From: Brenneria sp. hezel4-2-4
Lineage (GTDB): Bacteria > Pseudomonadota > Gammaproteobacteria > Enterobacterales > Enterobacteriaceae
DNA length: 64,000 bases
Direction of reading: 5' to 3'
Assembly (NCBI RefSeq): GCF_013155275.1
Contig: NZ_JABJXS010000007.1
Coordinates: 1 to 64,000, forward strand
Below, in pieces: positions 16,344-57,198 of the stretch. A program made the translations under genes and the position numbers. The notes below the pieces were generated by a model. It was not told the origin of the DNA, did no database searches, and worked only from the letters and a program-made list of their open reading frames with translations. How positions within the stretch are numbered: position 1 is the stretch's first letter; every line of letters begins with the position of its first letter.

Positions 16344-16397
16344 CTACGATAATCGTAGTATCGGTAATTCTTCATAACTACGATTATCGTAGTTATG
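16344..16397. promoter_or_regulatory. Paired operators ending in the XRE start codon
   Basis: CTACGATAATCGTAG at 16344-16358 is a 15-bp palindrome. A 25-bp perfect palindrome at 16373-16397 has arms CATAACTACGAT and ATCGTAGTTATG around one central base. Its last three bases are the ATG of the XRE gene. The cores are 34 bp apart. The same core occurs at 17077 in front of the second XRE gene, so this is probably the autoregulatory operator. No Shine-Dalgarno sequence separates it from the gene. Confidence 0.7.
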
Positions 16398-16721
16398 AAT
16401 GCTCATCGATCGCACAGTGATATTTTCAGTAAACGTTTAAAGGATGCCCGTCAGCTTCGTGGGCTGTCCCAGAAAGGGCTGGGTATCGCCGCCGGGATTG
16501 ACGAGTTCGTTGCCAGTACGCGTATCAACCGGTATGAAAAAGGCGTACACGAAGCCAATATCGTGACAGCCGGCCATCTGGCGCTGGCTTTACAAGTCCC
16601 GCTGGCGTACTTCTATGCAGACGACGATAATCTGGCTAAGATGATCCTGAAATTTGCCGAACTATCGGCAGCTCAACAAAATGCGCTGCTTGCCTCGCTG
16701 GAAAATAAATGGATCAGGTAA
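16395..16721 (+). CDS. XRE-family helix-turn-helix regulator
   Basis: The 108-aa protein has an XRE/Cro-C1 helix-turn-helix at residues 12-66 (FSKRLKDARQLRGLSQKGLG, RINRYEKGVHEAN). A short C-terminal tail follows that may dimerise. The ATG lies inside a perfect 25-bp palindrome, so binding of the protein to its own operator would cover the translation start, and the transcript may be nearly leaderless. A frameshifted paralogue follows at 17094. Target range unknown. Confidence 0.85.
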   Translation: MNAHRSHSDIFSKRLKDARQLRGLSQKGLGIAAGIDEFVASTRINRYEKGVHEANIVTAGHLALALQVPLAYFYADDDNLAKMILKFAELSAAQQNALLASLENKWIR

Positions 16722-26093: not shown

Positions 26094-26128
26094 AATAAAA
26101 ACCCGCCTTTATTTTTAGGAAAAAAAAA

Positions 26129-26176
26129 CCTGATTTGGAGAAATTCCTATTGAAATAGAAACTTCGCCAAATCAGG
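26129..26176 (-). terminator. Leader terminator of the PTS operon
   Basis: On the minus strand CCTGATTTGG and CCAAATCAGG form a perfect 10-bp stem around a 28-nt loop, followed by TTTTTTTT. It lies about 35 bp upstream of the EIIBC ATG and overlaps the 3' end of the RAT by two bases, the standard geometry of a mutually exclusive antiterminator. Confidence 0.85.
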
Positions 26177-26202
26177 TTTTGCCCGCTATGCAGCCACAAT
26201 CC
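26175..26202 (-). promoter_or_regulatory. RAT ribonucleic antiterminator site
   Basis: The minus strand reads GGATTGTGGCTGCATAGC followed by GGGCAAAACC, matching the E. coli bgl RAT (GGATTGTTACTGCATTCG, then CAGGCAAAACC) at nearly every position. A partial tandem copy, GGATTGTGACTGCAAAGC, lies just upstream (26203-26220). Binding of a BglG-type dimer here would prevent the terminator at 26129-26176. A TTGTCA -35-like box precedes it at about 26250. Confidence 0.85.
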
Positions 26203-37982: not shown

Positions 37983-38102
37983 ATGGAAATGATGCTGTGG
38001 TGGTCGGATTATCTGGACATCAGCCGCGAAGGATATGTCGCGCCGTATATTTTTGCGCGACAGCATAAGGCCGCGGGTACAGCCTGGCGGTTAATTCTCT
38101 GA
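37983..38102 (+). CDS. 39-aa small ORF with ribosome-binding site and terminator
   Basis: The frame reads MEMMLWWSDYLDISREGYVA to ARQHKAAGTAWRLIL. It has an AGGAAG ribosome-binding site 6 bp upstream and is closed 5 bp before a strong terminator (38107-38133), so it is framed like a real transcription unit. No known family. It is the only plus-strand gene in this stretch. Confidence 0.5.
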   Translation: MEMMLWWSDYLDISREGYVAPYIFARQHKAAGTAWRLIL

Positions 38103-38106
38103 CAGG

Positions 38107-38133
38107 AGCAGATCCTGACGAACGGGATCTGCT
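38107..38133 (+). terminator. Strong intrinsic terminator
   Basis: AGCAGATCC (38107-38115) and GGATCTGCT (38125-38133) form a perfect 9-bp stem followed by TCTTTGCTTTC. It follows the 39-aa ORF. Confidence 0.7.
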
Positions 38134-38180
38134 TCTTTGCTTTCTGAAAGGTTTTACCTTCGTATTTTCAACGATTAATC

Positions 38181-38227
38181 GGGAAACGTCTAAAATTATT
38201 CCGGCAGAATATTTTTAGGTCGTTACC
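38181..38227. repeat. Degenerate copy of the 47-bp palindrome at 56267
   Basis: GGGAAACGTCTAAAATTATT then CCGGCAGAATATTTTTAGGT matches the perfect palindrome at 56267-56313 over most positions, and both are followed on one side by a CCTATCAATA-type string. It lies 185 bp beyond the end of a tyrosine-recombinase gene. See findings. Confidence 0.7.
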
Positions 38228-38411
38228 TATCAATACGGGAAGTTTTTTAAAGGAAAACTTATCGTCATAGCGACGATAAAAAATCTGCACCATAGGATGG
38301 TTTTCTGCCGACACGACACTGCGCCAGAACCCGATATTCCGGCTAACTGCACCAGTTGCCATCCGTCGGGAAAACGCAAGGTTGCACCAGAGACAAGAAT
38401 CATCCATCGTT

Positions 38412-39281
38412 TCAACACCCATAAACCTGCGCCACATAACGCCCGCGCCCGTCGCCGTGGCCCAAATCCATCGCCGTCAGCGCCAGCGCCTCTTTTTCAC
38501 TGAATCCCTGCGCCAGATAATGACGAATGGCATCCTGCGCCCAGGCGTAGCGCAATGAATGCGGGGAATATGCGCCGGTCAAGCCGATACGCGACGCCTG
38601 ACCGTGCCAGTATTTCATCGCAGTTTTCAGGTCGGGCCTGTCAATCAGCTTGCCGTTGCGGCTCTCTGCCACAGCCAGCGCATTTTCCAGCGCTTTTCTG
38701 ACTGCGCCAGCATCCAGAATTACCGTTTCGCGAGGCCGTCCGCCTTTAGTGCCGAACACCACGGTAAGCCGGGTTTCGCCGCGCTCCAGCGCCTGTTTCC
38801 ACGTCCTGAGCGATTGCGCACACTGCACTGCTTCCTGAGAGCGCAATCCCATCAACCTTGAAAGCTCCAGCGCCGCTGCCATCCCGGTGTTTTTTTCACG
38901 AGCGGTTTCCAGCGCCTGCCGGTAATGCTCCGCAGTAATGGCCTGCCGGGTGCCGTTACGGGATGCGCCGGATAAGCCGAGAGATTTATTGGACAGCCGT
39001 TCACTGGTGGCTAATCGATCACGCCCGGCTTGCTTCAGCAGACAGCGGAGCGCCGCCATTTCGTTTTGCAGGCTGCGTTTCTTTATGCCCTGCTCCAGTC
39101 GTTCCCGAACGTAATTCTCAATATGTCGGGCTTTCAGTTGCTCCACCCGGCGGATCTGTACATTCTGTTCCAGTAAGCGCTCACAAAATCGCTGCGCCAG
39201 CGCCATGCGATCGTGGACGGTTTTATGACTGCCGCCCGCCTGCCGCGCCAGCGTTTTCATTTCCTGCTCCAGAATGCCCAT
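38412..39281 (-). CDS. Tyrosine recombinase-like 'integrase domain' protein
   Basis: The 289-aa protein has an N-terminal helical SAM-like domain and a C-terminal catalytic domain with the full set: Arg in LSRLMGLRSQEAVQ, HxxR in YSPHSLRYAWAQDA, a His in AMDLGHGDGRGRYVAQ and the nucleophile Tyr near the end in VAQVYG. It is a conserved accessory recombinase of this element class, distinct from the terminal integrase, and could act on a site inside the element. The inverted-repeat tract at 39605-39642 lies upstream. Confidence 0.85.
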   Translation of the reverse strand: MGILEQEMKTLARQAGGSHKTVHDRMALAQRFCERLLEQNVQIRRVEQLKARHIENYVRERLEQGIKKRSLQNEMAALRCLLKQAGRDRLATSERLSNKSLGLSGASRNGTRQAITAEHYRQALETAREKNTGMAAALELSRLMGLRSQEAVQCAQSLRTWKQALERGETRLTVVFGTKGGRPRETVILDAGAVRKALENALAVAESRNGKLIDRPDLKTAMKYWHGQASRIGLTGAYSPHSLRYAWAQDAIRHYLAQGFSEKEALALTAMDLGHGDGRGRYVAQVYGC

Positions 39282-39774
39282 TTTCTCTTTCCCCTTTTCA
39301 TGATTGCCGCAACTCCAAAATCTGATACAACTTTTCCCCGGCGCGTAGGCCGATAGCCCCTGATATTCGTCGGGGCTGCGAACGATACCTGAGCGCCGGG
39401 GCGGCAGCCGTTGAGGTGTTGCGGGGCTTCGGTTGTGCTCTCTGAGCAGCCGCCAGCGTTAGCTGGTTATCCCCCGGATCGTCCTGATCCCCCTCCGGTA
39501 TCGGTTCAAGTTCTCCTGTGAGTGAAAGTGGGTTGAATCACGGTGTCAGAATCCCGCCGTGCGTTGGCGCAGTTGAATTGTCTGGTGCAGTAACATGGCG
39601 CTGGTGCGTCACTTTCCCGCTCGGCGCGGTTAAAGTGACGCACTGGACTGGCGCAGTGAGTGAAAATTGAAATTTTGGTGCAGGATTGCGGTCACGCGAC
39701 AGCAAAGCCTACGTCAATGCAGGCCGCAGCCCGTTATAAGGGAGCTGACGCTCCGGTTCAGGGAGCGTCAGTAT
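39282..39774. repeat. Non-coding tract with an inverted repeat, upstream of the recombinase
   Basis: TGCGTCACTTT (39605-39615) and AAAGTGACGCA (39632-39642) form a perfect 11-bp inverted repeat with a 16-nt loop. Copies of TGGCGCAGT flank it at about 39565 and 39649. No coding frame is supported. The structure could be a recombination or transfer-origin-like site, or a terminator; the sequence alone does not decide. Confidence 0.5.
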
Positions 39775-41554: not shown

Positions 41555-41650
41555 CAGCCTCCTGTAACGGGTAATAAACCCACCACCGAAGAGACCAATC
41601 TTGTGGGTGGTGGACTGGACGGAGTTGGTCTTACCGGCGTTACAGGAACC
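41555..41650 (-). ncRNA. C4-like structured RNA leader
   Basis: On the minus strand an outer stem of CCTGTAACG with CGTTACAGG encloses an inner 8- to 9-bp stem CCACCACCC with GGGTGGTGG. GTAAGACCAACTCCGTC and GATTGGTCTCTTC stand in the loops. Such paired repeats and leader text precede Icd/Ash-like genes of enteric phages, where C4 antisense RNA acts on the neighbouring message. The transcript probably starts near 41750. The boundaries are estimates. Confidence 0.5.
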
Positions 41651-41759
41651 GGCGCATCTTTCGATGCCCCCGCCCAGCCCACCATAATTCAATAGTTGTG
41701 CTGGATTTACGGTATAAAAAAAGACGCAAGGCGCGTCATATACCGCCTGTAACAATTCG

Positions 41760-42192
41760 GGAGACCAATCCCGGCACCTGATTTTGCAGATGCGCTTAAA
41801 AGATACTGCTTTCTGTTAGCAGTAGCAAGCGGGGTTTTTAGAGATAGATCGCAGAAAATAAAAACGTTATTGATGAGTCTATAACCAGCTAATAAATAAC
41901 GGTTTGAGTGACGATGTAGCCTATCAAAAATATAAAAAAACGCTCATAATACCTGACGTCAGGTTCTCTGTGTTTTCTTGTTACTATGTTTTTTTTGATT
42001 GCTGCTCATGTTCATAAATGTCGATGGCTCTATATGCAAATATTCCTTACAAGAAATTAATAGTGACATTTTGAGTTTTTTTGAGGATCTCTGTGTAGCC
42101 AGAAAGACAGATTGGTGACATTATCATTCATTCAAATAAAAAGATACTTATGATTATAATAAAAATATGAAATATTAGTTCTGCAAGAGCAA
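41760..42192. other. AT-rich 430-bp region without a supported gene
   Basis: A small hairpin occurs at about 41807-41822 (TACTGCTTTCTGTTAGCAGTA). No ribosome-binding sites or recognisable frames were found. It separates the C4-like locus from a small ORF. Confidence 0.4.
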
Positions 42193-54811: not shown

Positions 54812-55312
54812 ATTGATTATCCTCGTATTGATATGTTGCAGGGGAGGCTGACGCCGATAGCGCGGCTGAACGGGCGTCAGCCATTTTGAGGGAGCATTCA
54901 CGGATCTGGCACAGCAGAAGGTGGTTATCGACATCTGCATGTTGAAGAGGATCCGAGCCTGTTCGATCGCCAGCAGCGCGTCCCTGATTTGCGGCGGTTG
55001 TGAGGCGTCCTGTAGCAGCGCGCGCCATGCCGGTGTGCCGGAGCGATTGTTCTGCTGATTGCGCCAGCGCAGAAAATTTGCACCAGAGCGGGCTGGCCCA
55101 CGGCATAACAGCAAGGGTAAGTTTCGTAACGGCCAGCGCCAGGCACGGTGAATGATCCGCGTCTGTAGCTGGTGCAGGGTCGCCGCCGCGTCTGCCGCAG
55201 ATTGCGCTGATAATTGCGGCTCCCTTACCCTTAAAAGGCCTTTTAGACAGCTTTCGTAAGCAAACCAGTCCTCGCGGGTCAGCGCCTGGTATATGGAGGC
55301 TGGATCAGTCAT
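54789..55312 (-). pseudogene. DUF3158-family gene with a late frameshift
   Basis: The start at 55312 reads MTDPASIYQALTREDWFAYE, and the body has QTRIIHRAWRWPLRNLPLL and IRDALLAIEQARILFNMQMS. The family normally ends with a RECxxK helix, which appears here as LLLCQIRECSLKMADAR but in another frame, ending at 54789. In the actual frame the protein runs without a stop into ssb. One indel near 54930 accounts for it. The start overlaps the TIGR03761 stop by 8 bp. Confidence 0.65.
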
Positions 55313-56126
55313 CGTCGTCTCCGGGCTCTGTCGCAGTAACCGTCGATACGTCAAGGTCTGGCCCATCGGCGGAAGGTTCATCTGGCGCAGAGGCCGGAAT
55401 ATCAGCCACAGGTTCAGGTCTATCCTCTGAGGCAAACCGGAGCGGTGGCGCATAGGCCGAGCGTCGGGAGCCCTTAAAGATATCGTCCGGCACGGGACCG
55501 GCTAATTCTTCCGCCGCCTGTGCGCGGGCATTGCCGTCACGGATATCCTGCCGGGTAACGGGAATACGCCGGTATTTCTGGGCCAGCACAAAAATACTGC
55601 GGATCAGGTTGCCGCCGCGCTGACGAATGTCGTTGAGCTCCACGCGGTTAATCAGCGCCATGTGATTCGCCAGCATCAGGTTGCGCATCAGCTTGTCGAA
55701 ATCGGTCAGCAGATAGACGGCAATAAACCCTAACTGGGAAGCGGCAAACACCGGGAACCGCGCAGGCTGGATACTGAGGCAGCTTTCAACGGTCATCATT
55801 TCCGGGATCTGGGCGAATACGGCGTCCATACTGCCGATTAATGCGTTCATTTCCTCCCGAGCGGACAGTAACCGTTCTTCCAGCCTCAGCATCCAGATAT
55901 CGGCATAGGGGTTGTCGGTGATGGCATCCAGGCGGAGGATATTCATGATATTAAGGAAACGCGGCATCCCGATGATGCCGTGGACATCTTCTTCCGGGTT
56001 TGCCTGGCGCCCCTGCCACAGCTGGGTCGCCAAATGGGTGTGCAGTTCAATGGTGATGGCGCTGCGTAACGGGCCGCTGGTGAGACGGTAATTATCCCGG
56101 CTGCTTTGCTGTTCGTTTTCGTTCAT
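55305..56126 (-). CDS. Integrative conjugative element protein, TIGR03761 (PFL_4669) type
   Basis: The 273-aa protein starts at 56126 (MNENEQQSSRDNYRLTSG), behind CAGGAGCC. The family pattern GPLRSAITIELHTHLATQLW, GIIGMPRFLNIMNILRLDAI, NPYADIWMLRLEERLLSARE and DRPEPVADIPAS fits. The tail is acidic (EPGDDDD). Its role in the element is unknown; it sits upstream of DUF3158 and ssb as usual. Confidence 0.88.
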   Translation of the reverse strand: MNENEQQSSRDNYRLTSGPLRSAITIELHTHLATQLWQGRQANPEEDVHGIIGMPRFLNIMNILRLDAITDNPYADIWMLRLEERLLSAREEMNALIGSMDAVFAQIPEMMTVESCLSIQPARFPVFAASQLGFIAVYLLTDFDKLMRNLMLANHMALINRVELNDIRQRGGNLIRSIFVLAQKYRRIPVTRQDIRDGNARAQAAEELAGPVPDDIFKGSRRSAYAPPLRFASEDRPEPVADIPASAPDEPSADGPDLDVSTVTATEPGDDDD

Positions 56127-56266
56127 GAGAGGCTCCTGCAAATGAAGGAGCGGACAGGGTGTTACAGTTTATTCTAGGGTGATATTGCAAAACCAATTAT
56201 AAAAATGAAGGAAATGGGCTGGCTGGTTTGATAGGCTATAATTTTGACTTTCTTATTATTGATAGG

Positions 56267-56313
56267 AAACGGTCTAAAAATATTCTGCCAGAATATTTTT
56301 AGACCGTTTCCGT
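56267..56313. repeat. 47-bp perfect palindrome
   Basis: The left arm GGAAACGGTCTAAAAATATT then CTG, a single central C, and the exact reverse complement form a 23+1+23 palindrome. It lies between the TIGR03761 start (56126) and the TraR-like stop (56415). A related degenerate copy, in the opposite orientation, is at 38181-38227. It is too long for an ordinary terminator and is not followed by a T-run. Confidence 0.85.
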
Positions 56314-56414
56314 TTGAAAGTGAGATATTAATCGGTAAAAACTATGTCTATCGATTGCACTGATAAGAAAAACACGCAGAGAAAGAAACTCCCCGCCTTT
56401 GGGTCGTCTTATTC

Positions 56415-56624
56415 TTAGCGCAGCTGGCGCTCAAGCTTTGCCTGGCAATCAATACACGTTGTTACGCCGGGCAATGTCCCACGCCGTTTGTCTGGAATGC
56501 GTTCACCGCATAGCCGGCAGTAAGACAATGATGGCGTTGCAGCAGGTCTGAAACGGTTTTTTTCGATAAGCTTTTCCAACTGCTGCTCATTGAGTTCCTG
56601 ATCGCGATCGATTTCATCTGGCAT
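56415..56624 (-). CDS. TraR/DksA-type zinc-finger protein
   Basis: Start at 56624 (MPDEIDRDQELNEQQLEKLI), preceded by AGGAGGAAAT; 69 aa. The C4 zinc finger has YCRLCGERIPDKR and TTCIDCQAKLE, with a short N-terminal helix as in TraR. TraR and DksA bind the secondary channel of RNA polymerase and change promoter choice. It overlaps the upstream DUF2857 gene by 11 bp. Confidence 0.87.
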   Translation of the reverse strand: MPDEIDRDQELNEQQLEKLIEKNRFRPAATPSLSYCRLCGERIPDKRRGTLPGVTTCIDCQAKLERQLR

Positions 56625-57198
56625 GTGATTTCCTCCTGTCCGATGCTTCTTTTTCGCAAAGCGTGATGCGGTTCCAGACCACGGTGAGCGACGGGCCCTC
56701 ATCTTGTGATGAGAGTTCTTCGGTAACTTGCATCATGATGTCCAGCGCGTTGAGCGAGTCGATGTTTTCCGGGCGTCGTTTTTGCCAACGAACCCAGATT
56801 TCAGCATCGGTATCTTCATCCGGGATTTGCGTCCGGCCCTGAGAAATAGATATACCTAGCAACCGGCGTCGGGCGCTGATTTCATTAGACGACAGGCCAA
56901 AATACTGGTTCAGAAGCTCAATTGAACCGCCCAGACAGATGGCCCGGTTAATCTGTTGTTGCAGGAGTACCTCCTGACGGGACTGAGCCAGGATCTGGCG
57001 TAGAACTTCGTGTTGGATCGTGACATTCATAAACTGCGCGGACGCCCGGCTGACAATGAACAGCTCGTCTAGGGATAACTGATTGATGGCGTTCATTTCG
57101 TCGTAAGTGAAACCCAGCGCTTCGCAGTAGCGAATGTTGCCTTCTTTCAGCGCATGCAGTACGTCAGTCAATACCGCGTAGTTCAGTGACGGGATCAT
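56614..57198 (-). CDS. DUF2857-family protein
   Basis: The 194-aa protein (MIPSLNYAVLTDVLHALKEG) has the family-type text YFGLSSNEISARRRLLGI, which resembles an FlhC/XRE-like helix-turn-helix, and EIWVRWQKRRPENIDSLNAL. The gene starts 4 bp inside the end of parB. Unknown function; it accompanies ParB in these elements. Confidence 0.83.
   Translation of the reverse strand: MIPSLNYAVLTDVLHALKEGNIRYCEALGFTYDEMNAINQLSLDELFIVSRASAQFMNVTIQHEVLRQILAQSRQEVLLQQQINRAICLGGSIELLNQYFGLSSNEISARRRLLGISISQGRTQIPDEDTDAEIWVRWQKRRPENIDSLNALDIMMQVTEELSSQDEGPSLTVVWNRITLCEKEASDRRKSHAR

Follow-up and report, generated by a model that had tools for sequence, protein, structure and literature searches.

The 47-bp perfect palindrome in the window (here, the whole 64,000-nucleotide stretch of DNA that was analyzed) looks, as judged from its sequence, like an orphan copy of a family of elements of about 65 bp, lying outside the module to which that family belongs. 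Mirror symmetry tended to persist in these elements while their sequence changed, which suggests an unrecognized DNA site used by islands. The best explanation, which is put forward tentatively, is that the elements are hairpin or cruciform sites of P4-satellite-like integration modules, most likely used by a tyrosine recombinase of the Integrase_1 family, and that the window copy, termed W1, is an orphan that owes its perfect symmetry to template-switch correction. A search of titles and abstract openings, with partial coverage of the literature and thus no proof of absence from print, found no description of these palindromes.

The palindrome and its relative in the window

The perfect inverted repeat (23+1+23) was located at 56265-56311, two bases below the coordinates of the preliminary description (56267-56313). 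Its arms were the longest perfect arms in the window (loop of 0 to 4 bases), and the maximum per shuffle in 30 dinucleotide-preserving shuffles was 7 to 11. The repeat lies within a complete element between a traR-like gene, the stop of which is 94 bp from W1, and an acaB homologue, with the following features:

55305-56141, minus strand: AcaB/PFL_4669-family gene, on the other side of W1 from traR (PF08900, TIGR03761)
56256-56320, plus strand: W1, the complete 65-bp element containing the palindrome (cmsearch with covariance model R1; length and frame as in other copies)
56265-56311, no strand: perfect 23+1+23 inverted repeat within W1 (sequence)
56321-56343, no strand: flank of about 23 bp resembling the integrase-side flank of an element in island L035 (blastn)
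56376-56396, minus strand: terminator-like stem-loop 3' of traR, before W1 (terminator prediction)
56415-56702, minus strand: traR-like gene (TIGR02419)

The resemblance to L035, an island of a genus mate, covered 88 bp at 77% identity (L035 9644-9731 versus window 56343-56256; blastn). Two terminator-like sites were found in the 600 bp scanned, against 0.5 expected. An intrinsic terminator (GC-rich stem plus T run) was called after traR and not at W1, and this candidate was rejected for the palindrome.

W1 was the only strong copy found outside the module formed by the integrase and Integrase_1 genes. A third copy in the window's own assembly (32 contigs) was found neither by nucleotide search nor with R1 (150 of 1,635 first-look candidates scored). 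Nucleotide searches with W1 gave no match in E. coli genomes and plasmids and chance-level matches in 29 phage records (E values of 2 to 8 for the 20 listed). The same search gave matches in 11 of 295 genomes of the family, 10 of them weak (E values of 7e-5 to 9e-3), mostly in small genomes, and taken as chance. The exact W1 pattern occurred in 11 stretches of genome contigs from organisms that were unrelated by title.

The preliminary description had anticipated the palindrome in other PFGI-1/SPI-7-class elements, and this expectation was not borne out at the loci compared. From traR to beyond 59 kb, the window resembled a block in two Klebsiella records, beside yersiniabactin genes, that contained traR and AlpA and, in one of the two, DUF2857. 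R1 gave only chance-level matches in both records (14.5 bits, E value of 0.64) and none at the acaB-homologue loci of four genus mates (0/4), the AcaB proteins of which were 31 to 36% identical; no close sister integrative and conjugative element (ICE) was among the records compared. A conserved feature of sister ICEs was rejected on these comparisons, and because no credible match was seen at these loci, W1 is, as far as seen, an orphan copy; it may be inert at its present location. Nothing was found to link the element to ParB, which the preliminary description had named as a protein to assay for binding. Two further inverted repeats were observed in the window, one in AT-rich sequence (26125-26180), its 27-base arms being 89% complementary, and a nested set around CTACGATAATCGTAGT (16344-16410).

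A diverged relative in opposite orientation near 38.2 kb, close to a tyrosine recombinase gene, had also been described, and all three particulars were confirmed. Positions 38182-38235, on the opposite strand, aligned with W1 at 89% identity over 55 bp, and the full 65-mers of W1 and this relative, W2, had 52 of 65 bases in common in the same orientation. The surroundings of W2 were annotated as follows:

37983-38090, plus strand: 3' remnant of a P4-type integrase gene (residues 398 to 440 of the L035 integrase)
38107-38133, no strand: terminator-like stem-loop (AGCAGATCC/GGATCTGCT) 3' of the integrase remnant, separate from the palindrome (sequence; also in relatives)
38172-38236, minus strand: W2, an imperfect palindrome related to W1, in its native place between the integrase remnant and the Integrase_1 gene (R1)
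38319-38390, minus strand: direct repeat CTGGYRCAR, three copies (starts at 38319, 38347, and 38382; sequence)
38412-39281, minus strand: Integrase_1-family tyrosine recombinase (PF12834 and PF12835)
39379-39509, minus strand: EFASI RNA (RF02957), upstream of the Integrase_1 gene (115.9 bits)
41603-41689, minus strand: C4 antisense RNA (78 bits)
41717-41793, minus strand: isrK RNA (76.4 bits)

The strands of W1 and W2 are given in the direction from Integrase_1 to integrase; R1 scored W1 at 73.2 bits on the minus strand versus 62 bits on the plus strand and W2 at 71 bits on the plus strand versus 49.6 bits on the minus strand. Positions 37983-38355 aligned with genus-mate islands L035 (88%) and L036 (92%), in which the integrase gene is full-length; the rest of that gene was not found at the window locus. 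W2 has native neighbors on both sides, so the opposite orientation of W1 and W2 is no sign of inversion, and an inversion between them was rejected.

ICE genes (TraD, TIGR03759, AcaB, and ParB) occurred elsewhere in the window. Because C4, isrK, and EFASI RNAs were found at this locus, the region from 38.2 to 41.8 kb was regarded as P4-satellite-like and not as ICE core. The features expected of a P4-like module, a P4-type integrase at a tRNA gene together with C4, were present in L035 (integrase, tRNA-Phe, C4, and isrK) and in part in the window (integrase remnant, C4, and isrK, with no tRNA gene). Among genus-mate islands, L035 and L037 lay at tRNA-Phe and L038 lay at tRNA-Asn. The islands resemble the integration modules of P4-like satellites in their integrase at a tRNA gene and their C4 and isrK RNAs but differ from them in also carrying Integrase_1, EFASI RNA, and the region of palindromes and direct repeats.

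Two side observations concern these loci. An Rfam search of six loci placed EFASI RNA immediately upstream of the Integrase_1 gene in every one (window 39379-39509, L163 6884-7013, L035 10983-11113, L134 7467-7596, L158 1360-1488, and L131 4869-5004), a pairing that may hint at a role for EFASI. A ParA-like gene (L036 6848-8011) directly preceded the 3' part of the tRNA-Phe homology and the integrase in L036, an arrangement resembling the junction in a tandem or circular ICE.

Frame and symmetry of the element family

The elements had a constant length of about 65 bp, conserved ends, and cores that differed between copies yet were self-complementary. Loosely written patterns for the end boxes were found in 44 (left) and 41 (right) of 47 curated elements, and copies within one array were homologous to one another. 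In E. coli islands at asparagine tRNA genes, the frame was unchanged but the cores were very different; an element of these islands (L158 3660-3725) was palindromic over 31-base arms with one mismatch.

Seventeen copies were aligned, and R1 was built as a covariance model for genome searches. Over 17 inner pairs of these copies, 82.4% of cells were paired, versus a shuffled mean of 71.7, and the covariation score was 0.370. Shuffled alignments scored 0.192, with none of 500 reaching the observed value, and sliding the partner gave no more than 0.124. Two measures were unexceptional: 33 of 500 shuffles equaled or exceeded the 10 pairs with changes in both partners, and 248 of 500 did so for the number of further pair types. 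With 29 pairs, which included the poorly paired outer part, both-side changes (10 versus 11.8) and pair types (21 versus 25.9) fell below the shuffles, while paired cells, changed cells, and the covariation score were still above all 500 shuffles.

Pairing between the two arms of one element was also compared with pairing between arms taken from different elements. From 71 elements taken, 66 unique elements were greedily clustered to nine representative cores, which were compared over 16 inner positions. With the center set by each core's own pairing, own arms paired at 0.78 versus 0.48 for cross combinations (0 of 10,000 permutations as high); with the center reoptimized for each combination, the values were 0.667 for own and 0.538 for mixed arms (1 of 10,000 permutations as high), and all 66 elements gave 0.686 and 0.552, respectively. 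Setting the center by a core's own pairing favors its own arms, and the own-arm excess is therefore real but smaller than the first comparison indicates. Among 15 E. coli alleles that were aligned and read by eye, paired substitutions were found in one core (CCATGATT/AATCATGG and CCGTGATT/AATCACGG), and an unmatched combination of these substitutions was present in L158 and L174.

Symmetry that outlives sequence in this way points to selection on DNA shape. It argues for selection on the family and not necessarily on W1, which is best viewed as a W2-type imperfect element made symmetrical; W2 and the genus-mate copies are imperfect. The preliminary description had taken the long perfect arms as a likely sign of selection on this copy, a conclusion that is weakened here, since template-switch correction of an imperfect palindrome during replication makes such arms, and perfection alone is therefore no proof of selection on W1.

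Arrays and their distribution

Islands of E. coli and related bacteria carried one to five copies between a P4-type integrase gene at a tRNA gene and a convergent gene for an Integrase_1 (PF12835) recombinase, with CTGGYGCAG direct repeats between the elements. In the 26 loci for which an integrase stop and an element were both available (coordinates entered by hand, with a few stops estimated), the nearest element was 83 to 99 bp from the integrase stop in 19 and 141 to 1,102 bp from it in the remaining 7 (L130, L131, L138, L139, L159, L162, and L164). On the Integrase_1 side, the nearest element was 24 to 25 bp from the stop in 9 of 22 loci, 132 to 136 bp in 5, and 175 to 850 bp in 8. Arrays were in register across several islands: the first three elements were spaced 69 to 70 and 174 to 175 bp apart in L126, L127, L128, L130, and L131, which are tRNA-Asn or tRNA-Met islands, and units were missing from this pattern in L134, L140, and L163. 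Five elements were seen by eye in L158, where R1 called three strongly and one weakly.

In four E. coli islands (L161, L171, L172, and L174), one 70-bp unit had been lost by fusion of two neighboring elements, with a switch point within about 3 bp (read by eye). This loss shows that recombination within an array is possible without revealing its mechanism, and slippage could also explain it. Neither inversion nor cassette shuffling was seen. An IS200C transposase gene was observed between array and integrase in E. coli LF82 (L139 8846-9304).

R1 matches were found in 4 of 9 genomes of the genus, 11 of 295 of the family, and 3 of 394 of the order, in samples that overlap; two of the 11 family genomes (G189 and G299; 33 to 35 bits, genomes of 0.4 to 0.6 Mb) were set aside as chance. 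In these searches, every strong R1 place except W1 adjoined a P4-type integrase gene, and every one except W1 and a pair at a contig end in G027 also adjoined an Integrase_1 gene or remnant. The cores from which R1 was derived were AT-rich, other E. coli cores scored weakly with it, and the large searches scored part of their candidates, so the copy counts are lower bounds. Among 49 Integrase_1 loci scanned, a set that included fragments and distant relatives, 8 had strong matches and 41 did not. Six of the islands without elements (L141 to L144, L147, and L148) carried an Integrase_1 90 to 93% identical to that of the window and kept the CTGGYGCAG repeats, so Integrase_1 needs no elements there.

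An E. coli array (L158:3270-3740) used as a query matched 449 of 5,426 E. coli genomes, 359 of them with at least 80% coverage. The LF82/EC28 array type matched 38 of the 5,426, and the complete L131 intergenic region matched 579 genomes, many only in part; the three counts may overlap, and most of the matches were uninspected. Among 40 E. coli array matches listed, 37 had no annotation at the array. In the plasmid collection, the L131 region matched 1 of 72,556 records (Salmonella enterica serovar India). One IMG/VR contig had Integrase_1 and three elements, with a gene of integrase length at its end; searches of viral contigs for the frame pattern gave nine stretches, none confirmed by R1, and a further pattern search recovered the L164 contig again. 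Cargo of the defense type was observed in array-bearing E. coli islands, including Avs3a (L138 1-2844) and NACHT and HEPN genes (L163 1-4407).

Candidate functions

The Integrase_1 protein matched an N-terminal SAM-like family (PF12834, residues 1 to 91) and a catalytic family, and residues R147, K179, H241, R244, H275, and Y287, catalytic by motif, were invariant in 12 of 12 sequences. A domain search found no arm-binding domain in this protein. Elements also occurred 183 bp from an integrase only 34% identical (L131), and they are therefore not tied to one integrase type. Because the catalytic residues are present, no arm-binding domain was found, and the elements accompany more than one type of integrase, the likeliest role of the elements was considered to be in DNA processing by Integrase_1. 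The islands that have an Integrase_1 of 90 to 93% identity yet lack elements count against this role, and the distances to the gene stops have the exceptions given above. In such a role, the elements would act as DNA able to fold into a hairpin or cruciform, would be recognized by their conserved ends and paired stem, and would serve a processing step of the island, either recombination or the initiation of transfer, with the neighboring Integrase_1 protein as the most likely user. W1 would be a copy made, or left behind, away from the module, and template switching would have corrected an imperfect palindrome like W2 into its perfectly symmetrical form. The interpretation in the preliminary description was supported in part: the family sits next to genes for tyrosine recombinases and has remained symmetrical while its sequence changed, but W1 was not supported as a conserved part of PFGI-1/SPI-7-class elements.

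Searches with a single Integrase_1 sequence and with a 12-sequence profile matched no PDB chain, and an AlphaFold model from two sequences (mean pLDDT of 48.7) was left unused. A second class of palindromes was observed near many Integrase_1 genes; these are GC-rich and perfect or near perfect, with 19- to 21-base arms of the type TCTCCCG..CGGGAGA or GCTCCT..AGGAGC, and are often next to a CTTCGCTTG-like motif (L055 577-619, L060 752-794, L065 497-540, L071 234-275, L078 4005-4047, and others).

Integron attC sites, as described in PMC8946536, are imperfect palindromes with an unpaired spacer and variable terminal structure that are recognized as folded strands. The elements share with such IntI substrates an imperfectly palindromic form in which the ends are conserved, the spacer pairs poorly, and the core varies, as well as a tandem arrangement beside a tyrosine recombinase gene; recognition of their structure is suggested by analogy only. 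The attC R box pair, which has the consensus RYYYAAC and GTTRRRY at the ends, was absent from all 47 elements, and membership among integron attC sites was rejected. Furthermore, the recombinase here is of the Integrase_1 family, and the units are too close for gene cassettes: the 70-bp spacing leaves about 5 bp and the 175-bp spacing leaves about 110 bp. The annotation of two arrays includes a small gene for a hypothetical protein (L157 3129-3326 and L172 95-394), and both genes overlapped the elements and did not lie between them. The more specific proposal that the arrays might be cassette-less, structure-recognized recombination or transfer sites of a distinct tyrosine recombinase class (Integrase_1), read as hairpins or cruciforms by way of their conserved ends and having interchangeable self-complementary cores, is conceivable but unlikely.

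A second comparison is with MpsA (SGI1), MobK (pIGRK), and TcpM (pCW3), which are described in PMC6414798 and PMC8152469 as tyrosine-recombinase-like mobilization proteins with repeat-rich oriT regions. A tyrosine-recombinase-like gene near several inverted repeats is common to those accounts and the present loci, as are direct repeats in the case of pIGRK; the Integrase_1 locus had the catalytic residues in 12 of 12 sequences and palindromes and CTGGYGCAG repeats beside the gene. PMC8152469 describes the three proteins as lacking a core-binding domain; in Integrase_1, the PF12834 match is a candidate for one. The SGI1 oriT repeat IR1 is 7 bp and GC-rich, whereas the present palindromes are rich in AT and much longer. 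An oriT of Klebsiella asn-tRNA islands is placed near virB and mob genes in several groups by PMC4891358, and PMC6035254 concerns another island family.

Among the alternatives to a site served by Integrase_1, a replication origin of the P4-like island survived best, although it was judged improbable. The elements and CTGGYGCAG repeats would then be the palindromes and iterons of an AT-rich region to which an initiator, encoded by the island or the host, binds. The intergenic regions contained iteron-like direct repeats in up to seven forward copies at 37 to 43% GC (11 loci measured), and the presence of C4 and isrK RNAs connects several islands with P4-type satellites; however, islands exist that have the repeats without the palindromes. 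Whatever likeness the region bears to P4 replication repeats is presumed here.

Slightly less likely than an origin is a role in which the elements serve the P4-type integrase, or its directionality factor, as accessory sites that set excision and integration at the tRNA gene. The recurrence of one element 83 to 99 bp from the integrase stop would fit such sites, but elements were also found with the divergent integrase of L131 and were not found beside the tRNA-Phe-type integrases of L141 to L148, and they lie at the 3' end of the integrase gene, whereas the tRNA gene is on its 5' side.

A transcription barrier between convergent genes, either a bidirectional terminator or a roadblock, was thought quite improbable. 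The elements do lie between convergent genes in the islands and, at W1, after traR, but their stems are AT-rich, W1 was not called as a terminator, and several tandem copies would be superfluous. Terminator-like stem-loops lie nearer to traR and to the integrase gene than the elements do, between stop codon and element, and the preliminary description was probably right in preferring a site other than a terminator.

No more probable than a barrier is a selfish palindromic repeat, MITE- or REP-like, that resides in the module by chance. W1 is a copy at a new place, the copies within an array are homologous, and REP/BIME and MITE sequences are likewise short palindromic intergenic DNA. The elements differ from these in being confined to one kind of module; no dispersed copies were found in the genus, family, or order genomes searched, on which ground a dispersed MITE or REP repeat was rejected, and the recurring distances to gene ends and the arrays in register between several islands also speak against it. 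A structured RNA or small RNA encoded by the element was considered the least likely of all. Covarying pairs and an excess of G-T over A-C mismatches in the outer stem (38 versus 20) would agree with an RNA, and some strand preference may exist in the outer stem, but the inner stem had no such excess (30 G-T versus 43 A-C) and so gave no sign of a folded RNA strand. No Rfam family reached its gathering score over the elements of five loci and the window region (best match at W1, 26 bits against a gathering score of 74), and a known structured RNA was rejected.

In common islands, some of them with defense genes, the element family picks out a short stretch of the integrase module. If that stretch is the recombination, replication, or transfer site of the island, it would offer a handle on how such islands move, and it would also test whether structure-recognized tyrosine recombinase sites exist beyond integrons. 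Should the more specific proposal of sites of a distinct Integrase_1 class hold, the arrays would represent a second attC-like system, or an oriT driven by a tyrosine recombinase, and about 8% of complete E. coli genomes would contain it within the integrase modules of their islands.
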